Of a stretch of DNA of 64,000 nucleotides, positions 41,305-43,159 are shown piece after piece (the first letter of the stretch is position 1; each line of letters opens with the position of its first letter). A program made the translations under genes and the position numbers. The notes under the pieces are model-generated. The model saw only the letters and a list, made by a program, of their open reading frames with translations. It was not told the origin of the DNA and made no database searches. This stretch comes from Thiogranum longum. Lineage in GTDB: Bacteria > Pseudomonadota > Gammaproteobacteria > DSM-19610. Location: contig NZ_SMFX01000001.1 in assembly GCF_004339085.1 (NCBI RefSeq), forward strand, positions 310,001-374,000. The letters are read 5' to 3'.

Positions 41305-42060
41305 GTGGAATTACTAGATCAGTTTGTGCTGTTTATCATTTCTCTGCTGGCAAACCTGCTGTCAGCCTTTTCAGGTGGCGGCGCCGGTTTGATCCAGTTG
41401 CCGGCACTGATCTTTCTGGGTTTGCCATTCGTGATTGCGTTGGCTACCCACAAGGTTGCCAGTGTTGCCCTTGGTATCGGCGCGACAGTGCGTCACTTGA
41501 GAGAGAGAGGCCTCGAAAAACGGCTTGCCCTGTTTATACTTGCGACCGGTTTGCCCGGTGTTGTCGTGGGCGCCAACCTGATAGTCGATATCCCGGGCCG
41601 TATTGCTGAAGTGGCGCTTGGAATGCTGACCGCAGGGCTGGGTTTGTACTCCTGGCGGCGTCCTGCCCTGGGGCAGACAGAAAGCCTCATACACCGTGAC
41701 AGGCGTGGTTTCATCATCGGTGGAGCAGGCCTGTTTTTGATCGGTGCACTGAATGGCTCGCTCACTTCAGGCACGGGTCTGTTTGTCACCCTCTGGCTGG
41801 TGCGCTGGTTCGGCTTTGAGTACAAACGTGCAATAGCCTATACGCTGGTGCTGGTCGGGGTGTTCTGGAACGGTGCTGGTGCGTTGACACTGGGTCTGAT
41901 CGCGGAGATCCGCTGGGACTGGCTGCCGGCCCTGTTGCTGGGGTCACTGCTGGGGGGGTATTTTGGCGCGCATCTGGCGATCCGCCAGGGGAACCGTTGG
42001 GTCAAGCGGGCGTTTGAGCTGGTGACGCTGGTGATAGGGGTCAAGTTGATTTTGGGATAG
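41305..42060 (+). CDS. TauE/SafE family membrane exporter
   Basis: A 251-residue protein with about seven to eight helices and the family opening LLSAFSGGGAGLIQLPALIFLGLP, repeated in degenerate form in the second half (GALNGSLTSGTGLF). Members export sulfite, sulfoacetate or other organic anions; the substrate here is not visible. It starts with GTG and has no clear ribosome site. It is divergent from the DUF4124 gene and is followed by a 450-base stretch holding two palindromic elements. Confidence 0.85.
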   Translation: MELLDQFVLFIISLLANLLSAFSGGGAGLIQLPALIFLGLPFVIALATHKVASVALGIGATVRHLRERGLEKRLALFILATGLPGVVVGANLIVDIPGRIAEVALGMLTAGLGLYSWRRPALGQTESLIHRDRRGFIIGGAGLFLIGALNGSLTSGTGLFVTLWLVRWFGFEYKRAIAYTLVLVGVFWNGAGALTLGLIAEIRWDWLPALLLGSLLGGYFGAHLAIRQGNRWVKRAFELVTLVIGVKLILG

Positions 42061-42097: not shown

Positions 42098-42218
42098 GTG
42101 CCGGTGTGTCGGGGTTTCCCGGCTCAACGGTTTGCCCGCTGCGCGGGTCCCCTGCGCTTCTCGCGTAATGCGGCGCTCGGCTGCAACGAATCACCGGGAA
42201 ACCCCGACACACCGGCAC
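42098..42218 (-). repeat. Palindromic element 1 (short form)
   Basis: Two perfectly complementary 25-base arms (42098-42122 and 42194-42218) enclose a 71-base core. On the minus strand the core opens with TCGTTGCAGCCGAGC and closes with GAGAAGCGCAGGGG, then a CCCGC-GCA-GCGGG hairpin and AA. The same two boxes occur in element 2 on the plus strand, so this copy lies inverted and lacks a middle part. No protein-coding sense is apparent. It lies in the gene-free stretch 42061-42511. Confidence 0.85.
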
Positions 42219-42262
42219 TGAACGTTCGGTAGTACTCAAAGATTATGGTTTATACAAAGTAA

Positions 42263-42461
42263 GTTCCGGGCGGGTTGGCTTTCTTGCCGGCATCGACGCA
42301 GCCGAGCATCGCAGGCGTTTTGCGATTGAGCGAGCGTTGTTTGAGCGATTCACGCGTTAGCGTGGATGGCGAGTTTAGCGAGCGCGCAAAACGTCGAGAA
42401 GCGCAGGGTACCCGCGTAGCGGGCAAGTCGCCGCCGGCAAGAAAGCCAACCCGCCCGGAAC
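42263..42461 (+). repeat. Palindromic element 2 (long form)
   Basis: Perfect 29-base arms (42263-42291 and 42433-42461) enclose a 141-base core. Nested inside are CGTTTTGCG (42316-42324) with CGCAAAACG (42385-42393), an apical CACGC-GTTA-GCGTG hairpin (42351-42364) and a CCCGC-GTA-GCGGG hairpin near the right arm. The core boxes TCGACGCAGCCGAGC and GAGAAGCGCAGGGT match element 1. The arms align with those of element 1 (shared CCGG, GG and TTTC) but differ at about eight positions, each difference matched in the opposite arm. Confidence 0.87.
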
Positions 42462-42511: not shown

Positions 42512-43159
42512 TCAGGCGGTAATGCCATATTTCGCGCGGTAGCGGGCAATGGCCTCGAGTGCTTCGGCGTACTCGGACCGACCGTGCAGAAAGGTCTGTA
42601 ACTCGGCCAGTGTGACGATACTGGCCACTTTCAGCCCCAGATCCTGCTCGACTTCCTGAATGGCGGAGCGCTCGTCCTGGCCACGCTCCTGGCGGTCCAG
42701 GGCAATCACCACGCCGGCTGCACTGGCGCCTGCGGCATCGATGATCTGCAGGGATTCACGGATGGCGGTACCGGCGGTGATTACGTCATCGATAATCAGT
42801 ACGCGGCCTTGCAGCGGGGCGCCGACCAGGTTGCCGCCTTCACCGTGCGCCTTGGCTTCCTTGCGGTTGAAACACCAGGGCGTGTCCGTGTGGTGGTGGT
42901 CGGCGAGGGCGATGCTGGCAGCGGCGGCCAGCGGGATACCCTTGTAGGCCGGGCCAAACAGGACATCGAAGTCAATGCCGGAGTCGAGAATGGTCTGTGC
43001 ATAGAAGCGCCCGAGTCGTGCCAGATGGCTGCCACAGTTAAACAGGCCAGCGTTGAAAAAATACGGGCTGACGCGACCGGATTTCAGCGTGAACTCACCA
43101 AAGCGCAAAACACCGGCTTCGATGGCAAACTCGAGAAATTCTTTTTTATAGGATTGCAT
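42512..43159 (-). CDS. pyrE: Orotate phosphoribosyltransferase
   Basis: PyrE joins orotate to PRPP, giving OMP in pyrimidine synthesis. The 215-residue protein has the usual start [25 protein letters not shown], the flexible-loop lysines ([12 protein letters not shown]) and the PRPP motif [13 protein letters not shown]. It is divergent from the exonuclease gene with about 60 bases between. The other pyr genes in the window are 10 kb away. Confidence 0.97.

Follow-up and report, generated by a model that had tools for sequence, protein, structure and literature searches.

A widespread family of short intergenic repeats with copy-specific, self-paired arms in Gammaproteobacteria

Two palindromic elements located at positions 42,098-42,461 of the window, the stretch of 64,000 nucleotides analysed in this study, belong to a widespread family of short intergenic repeats in many Gammaproteobacteria. 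The repeat family has apparently not been described so far. We interpret it as a dispersed family of non-autonomous elements of about 200 bp, whose plus strand has a function when folded, with RNA as its likelier form; we put the probability of this reading at about 0.5.

Results

The two palindromes in the window

The initial annotation had reported two related palindromes with perfect arms of 25 and 29 bases, and an inverted-repeat check showed both to be real and correctly placed. Element 2 (42,263-42,461, plus strand) is a complete copy and was used as the reference copy for family searches. Its 5' arm (42,263-42,291, plus strand), which varies from copy to copy, and its 3' arm (42,433-42,461, plus strand) form the outer helix P1, in which 29 of 29 nucleotides are perfectly paired; the arms reach 35 nucleotides with two mismatches (94%). 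Element 1 (42,098-42,218) lies on the minus strand. In element orientation, the 3' arm of its helix P1 is at 42,098-42,122 and the 5' arm at 42,194-42,218 (both minus strand), with perfect pairing at 25 of 25 nucleotides. Box 2 (GAGAAGCGCAGGG) and box 1 (GCAGCCGAGC) of element 1 were found at 42,150-42,162 and 42,175-42,184, respectively, again on the minus strand, and the boxes are thus common to the two elements in opposite orientation, as had been noticed before.

The earlier view of element 1 as a deleted version is consistent with its alignment to element 2: both arms and both boxes are present, and most of the internal hairpin is missing. Although internally deleted, this copy is recognised by the covariance model as belonging to the family (C1:352122-352194, minus strand, 57 bits, E = 6e-11). 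All arm differences between the two elements had been described as matched in the partner arm, which holds, both arm pairs being perfect; the number of differing positions had been given as about eight and is about 11 when the 25-nucleotide arms are compared without gaps. The plus strand of element 2 folds with a z-score of -10.4 against dinucleotide shuffles, and element 1 with a z-score of -8.5. The folding energy of element 2 is -126.9 kcal/mol for the plus strand versus -111.5 kcal/mol for the minus strand. Its nested stems, CGTTTTGCG/CGCAAAACG and CACGC/GCGTG, pointed out in the initial annotation, were recovered in the predicted fold.

Fold of the core

The plus strand (reading GCAGCCGAGC...GAGAAGCGCAGGG) is a single folded rod consisting of P1, P2, P3, an internal loop, P5 and a side hairpin, P6. 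All coordinates in this paragraph refer to the plus strand of element 2. Box 1 (GCAGCCGAGCATCGCAG, 42,298-42,314), which is conserved in the alignment and covaries with box 2, is the 5' strand of the mostly non-canonical helix P2, and box 2 (GAGAAGCGCAGGG, 42,396-42,408) is its 3' strand. The two boxes are therefore the two strands of one helix, a point that goes beyond the initial annotation. The covarying helix P3 is formed by 42,315-42,323 (5' strand) and 42,386-42,394 (3' strand). The conserved internal-loop strand TGTTTGAGC (42,338-42,346), the most widely kept motif of the family, faces a second conserved strand, GCGAGTTT (42,369-42,376). The rod ends in the apical hairpin P5 (42,345-42,370), which covaries and is variable in length, and the side hairpin P6 (CCCGC-GTA-GCGGG) occupies 42,411-42,423.

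When a hand-written structure was applied to 31 aligned copies, double changes were found at 27 of the 35 core pairs. Paired cells amounted to 92.8% in the core of these copies, versus 67.7% after column shuffling and about 42% or less when the structure was slid; many copies are of common ancestry, and the covariation cells are thus not independent events. The covariation was also seen in a broader collection, made up of 107 distinct sequences with an alignment fitted to the model. In comparisons between genera, too, the core helices covary, and they do so around loops that are conserved.

Boxes 1 and 2 share the form GAG-N-A-N-CGCAG, and their mutual pairing is seen from covariation. A conserved central A.A is flanked by the two N-N positions, which swap between C-G, T-A and G-C; of 75 sequences, 70 have a standard pair at one of them and 73 at the other. 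Since the P2 positions between the N-N pairs imply A.G and G.A oppositions, helix P2 is mostly non-canonical. Tandem G.A also takes the place of standard pairs elsewhere in the helices.

Arms that differ between copies and pair within each copy

Each copy in the host genome has outer arms of its own, which pair within that copy. The median identity between copies is 79% for the core and 39% for the arms. Arm pairing was counted in 28 type-A copies, of which 27 belong to the host genome, the genus or named close relatives. Watson-Crick pairs made up 714 of the 784 arm cells, a proportion that is somewhat selected because the copies were picked mainly for recognisable paired arms. After arms were exchanged between copies, a control unaffected by this choice, the mean was 328 and the maximum 417. 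At most arm positions all four pair types are present.

Several simple origins of the arms were considered and rejected. Guide-like arms are rejected on the ground that the arms of 11 copies in the host genome match nothing else there beyond chance. Derivation of the arms from the target site is rejected as well: in the close relative G012, the nadA site carries no arm, and the fabI site carries an arm remnant only. The orthologous element is present in G010, and the remnant is therefore best taken as the result of a loss. Base-specific mutagenesis of the arms is rejected by the mixed spectrum of the copies in G009, a genome of the host's genus.

Strand asymmetry of mismatches

Mismatches in the helices of the plus strand are G-U far more often than A-C, with a total ratio of 55:7. 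The ratio is 34:4 in the core and 21:3 in the arms (p = 3e-4, which is indicative, since related copies are not independent), and it is 128:37 in the broad set. The variant arms of G009 showed 11 G-U and 9 A-C, mismatches too few to tell the strand. Because G-U far exceeds A-C, one strand is kept foldable. The bias argues for selection acting on a single folded strand, be it RNA or single-stranded DNA; the G-U excess identifies the folding strand without separating these two. Selection for pairing, as suggested in the initial annotation, is thus backed both by covariation in every helix and by the strand-specific G-U excess.

Size and distribution of the family

The unit consists of a core of about 125 nucleotides closed by arms of 25-36 nucleotides, giving about 200-242 bp in all. 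In the complete host genome (2.9 Mb), the covariance model found 13 copies, including elements 1 and 2, and an earlier search with element 2 gave further copies. Genome searches thus returned numerous intergenic copies with varied, self-complementary arms, as the initial annotation had expected of an element family. With model R1, members were found in 10 of 17 genomes of the host's genus and in 16 of 399 genomes sampled across the phylum, all 16 belonging to the host's class. The broader model R2 found members in 66 of 369 genomes, or 52 of 271 genera, in a sample of the class. Named relatives with members are Thiohalobacter and Thiogranum assemblies, Burkholderiales, Silvimonas and Nevskia. 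Since the copy number ranges from 0 to 46 within the host's genus, with zero in seven of its members, the family is not essential.

No family in Rfam 15 reached the gathering threshold, and a type-A copy had no match there even at E up to 5. Searches of plasmid and phage collections gave no family match. Three pattern matches were found on viral contigs. One of them (L166:7717-7762), on an IMG/VR contig filed as viral, clearly belongs to the family and has arms of the same type; it may come from the flank of a prophage or from a piece of chromosome that was filed wrongly. The open-access literature, to which the search was confined, held no matching sequence or description of the repeat family.

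Distant members are of type B, in which the outer stem is short and a pyrimidine-rich hairpin comes after it. At L027, L047, L054 and L117-L143, this hairpin (CTTTTCTTTGGTTACTTTCTTTTGGCGAAGCAAAAGAAAGTAAC) lies directly 3' of the core and is often followed by a CTCGCC/GGCGAG hairpin. The pyrimidine-rich 3' hairpin recurs across many families and, judged from its sequence, may be capable of forming an intrastrand triplex. Perfect tandem arrays of hexa- or heptanucleotides adjoin the 5' end of some distant members (L143:1888-1942, L054:6298-6340 and L137:1630-1673), the units being AAAGAGC, CAACCC and CAACAG on the plus strand of the respective loci. Other short palindromic repeats, of the GGATTCCGGCCTGCGCCGGAATGACG and GATTGCTTCGCTGCGCTCGCAATGACG types, flank elements at L002, L003, L004, L020, L032 and L057 and at the G012 loci L144/L145.

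Position relative to genes

Elements 1 and 2 are arranged head-to-head between two convergent genes, a TauE-like gene (41,305-42,060, plus strand), whose 3' end is toward element 1, and pyrE (42,512-43,159, minus strand), whose 3' end is toward element 2; both genes are taken from the list of open reading frames, and their names from the initial annotation only. A spacer of 44 bp (42,219-42,262, without strand) separates the elements, and a search of it for a sigma70-like promoter found none. No promoter stands out near the window copies in general. The head-to-head arrangement turned out to be a rule of the family, which had not been recognised in the initial annotation: 25 of 31 pairs of neighbouring copies within 1.5 kb are head-to-head, one of the 25 (L061) being an overlapping artefact.

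For 11 of the 13 copies in the host genome, the 3' arm of the element is faced by the 3' end of an adjacent gene. Simple ORF calls at all loci showed that most genes no more than 150 bp away point toward the element: 40 of 47 beside the 3' arm, and 22 of 32 at the 5' side. A search for U-tracts after a GC stem, as in intrinsic terminators, gave one site versus 0.9 by chance, and none stands out near the window copies. A tie to one particular gene was considered and rejected, the recurring 403-aa neighbour being argG at one orthologous locus. At the site between the lpd (pyruvate dehydrogenase) side gene and argG, an element or a head-to-head pair is present in six species of the genus (L046, L062, L060, L094, L073 and L049).

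Turnover of copies and arms

The close relative G012 lacks elements at the tauE-pyrE, pyrB-phoU and nadA sites and has, as mentioned above, an arm remnant at the fabI site. In the host genome, two copies are 98.8% identical over 242 bp, arms included, in unrelated surroundings. No clear target duplication was found at these two recent copies or at the nadA empty site.

Orthologous elements show how resident copies change. The argG-side element of two species has an identical core throughout, in a locus that is 88-92% identical, and its arms differ by three pairs changed on both sides and two changed on one. In the fabI-side element, 8 of 30 arm pairs are changed on both sides, including one paired deletion, and three on one side. 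These facts suggest that the cores of resident elements are constrained, and that the arms change on both sides together.

The genome G009 contains about 44 copies of one variant (L194-L233), and 26 were read over their whole length. Where the cores of these copies differ at no more than one position, the arms differ at 6-21 of 28 pairs, almost all of them matched; in one example there are no core differences and 17 of 28 arm pairs are changed, none of them one-sided. The exception is one pair involving L201, which is due to a one-base shift in one arm. The arm ends of the G009 copies are conserved, the variable positions are interspersed, and the mutation pattern is not base-specific. Independent compensatory mutation cannot easily account for the G009 arms, the change being far too concerted for slow selection alone. 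Two readings are left: around the time of copying the arms were replaced together as matching pairs, or they remained old and the core was homogenised. The identical arms of the recent pair in the host genome argue against renewal at every copying event. Arm copying during mobility, which the initial annotation had offered as an alternative, may still apply alongside selection: copies in G009 that have the same core show many changed arm pairs, all of them matched.

As to the enzymes involved, PF01797 (Y1/RAYT transposase) is absent from the complete host genome despite its 13 copies; it is present in 12 of 17 genus members and does not track copy number. PF00078 (reverse transcriptase) is absent from the host genome as well. 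A drive by RAYT or reverse transcriptase is therefore rejected for the host genome at present. A transposase-like frame between the two copies at L072 was also rejected as a candidate, since it looks like an unrelated degenerate insertion sequence.

Discussion

Nature of the element

We favour a functional folded strand, preferably acting as RNA, because resident elements have conserved cores and because the G-U bias is specific to one strand. The folded strand would act as RNA inside 3'-end or convergent read-through transcripts; the conserved loops would bind a putative factor, and the arms would need only to pair. The family might spread by occasional copying through an enzyme supplied from elsewhere, and the complementarity of the arms would persist if each arm is under selection to fit its partner or takes that partner as its template.

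The main rival is a purely selfish non-autonomous mobile DNA, in which the folded single strand serves only as a copying substrate (cf. REPINs, IS200/IS605 ends and attC) with no function once inserted, the arms pairing for recognition and one of them being rewritten by snap-back synthesis. Strand-specific folding would suit single-stranded DNA equally well as RNA, and a near-identical 242-bp unit at unrelated loci, the differing presence of elements between close species, and about 44 variant copies in G009 with identical cores and 7-17 of 28 arm pairs changed, nearly all matched, are what such an element would leave. The cores at orthologous resident sites are, however, better conserved than their surroundings, the two most recent copies in the host genome have kept identical arms without a clear target duplication, and that genome has neither a Y1/RAYT transposase nor a reverse transcriptase. 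We therefore consider the RNA reading more likely than a purely mobile single-stranded DNA hairpin, which seems rather unlikely to us, if the strongest of the rivals. It is worth noting that the element could also be self-diversifying, a mobile structured RNA or single-stranded DNA with arms rewritten as matched pairs at copying, one templating the other, and a central module recognised by its shape. An element of this kind is not known to have been described before, and we raise it tentatively, as an unlikely possibility.

Two further explanations were weighed. Quasi-palindrome correction at the DNA level, that is, template switching in a hairpin, could keep the arms complementary while gene conversion homogenises the core, and pairing itself would be unselected. 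The matched block changes and the paired deletion at an orthologous site, together with the matched arm changes beside identical cores in G009, are in line with this process. A symmetric DNA process, however, predicts equal numbers of G-U and A-C and not 55:7, and the core helices covary between genera around conserved loops as for a selected fold; we regard this explanation as improbable. An immobile element serving convergent genes as an intrinsic terminator or as a protector of their 3' ends would agree with very stable folds at gene 3' ends and in convergent intergenic regions. U-tracts are nevertheless not beyond chance, the same gene pairs occur without the element in close relatives, complex conserved loops are not needed for termination, and recent copies are found at unrelated sites. 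Such a role by itself is thus highly improbable. The decoupled evolution of arms and core, for its part, provides a natural test of how arms are matched, whether by selection for pairing, by snap-back copying or by hairpin-templated correction.

Comparison with known systems

REP and REPIN sequences have a conserved palindrome of 20-40 nucleotides with a tagging tetranucleotide. The present family resembles the REP/BIME/REPIN sequences with RAYT (PMC2817692, PMC3116915) in forming multi-copy intergenic palindromes, often as inverted pairs. Its unit of about 200-242 bp, however, is far longer, its arms are unconserved, its centre is conserved and its ends variable, which is the reverse of REP, its internal helices covary, and the host genome has no Y1/RAYT transposase.

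In MITE-type repeats, the terminal repeats are conserved across copies. Those of the present family are almost wholly different between copies, yet self-complementary, with the median identity of 39% in the arms versus 79% in the core. MITE-type repeats such as Correia/NEMIS, ERIC, RUP and the Coxiella QMITEs (PMC2229807, PMC5896051) are similarly short, non-autonomous, dispersed, hairpin-forming and located at gene ends, and the host genome does contain near-identical dispersed copies at unrelated loci, as is usual for MITEs (242 bp, 98.8%). The 3' pyrimidine-rich hairpin of the distant members (CTTTCTTTTGGTTACTTTTCTTTGGC...) looks, from its sequence, similar to intrastrand triplex motifs (Holder et al. 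2015, PMC4666352); the published TM-ECO triplex motif is a G/C-rich pattern, unlike this hairpin (Holder et al. 2015, PMC4666352). Retrons differ from the present case in that the host genome has no reverse transcriptase (PF00078).

The family shares a strand-specific fold and variable, pairing stems with the attC sites of integrons. It differs from them in having no attC core sites or cassette array, its conserved module being central and its copies scattered. It is the folded form of one DNA strand that is recognised in attC, and its stems vary but pair. With the structured RNAs of Rfam, the family has in common conserved loops, covarying helices and a strand-specific fold; covariation above shuffled controls and strand-specific tolerance of G-U, both of which are expected of a structured RNA, are found here. 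Unlike these RNAs, it is multi-copy, dispersed and without a match in Rfam 15. A strongly covarying fold that is missing from Rfam and occurs in about a fifth of the sampled gammaproteobacterial genera is a target for transcriptomics and RNA biochemistry.
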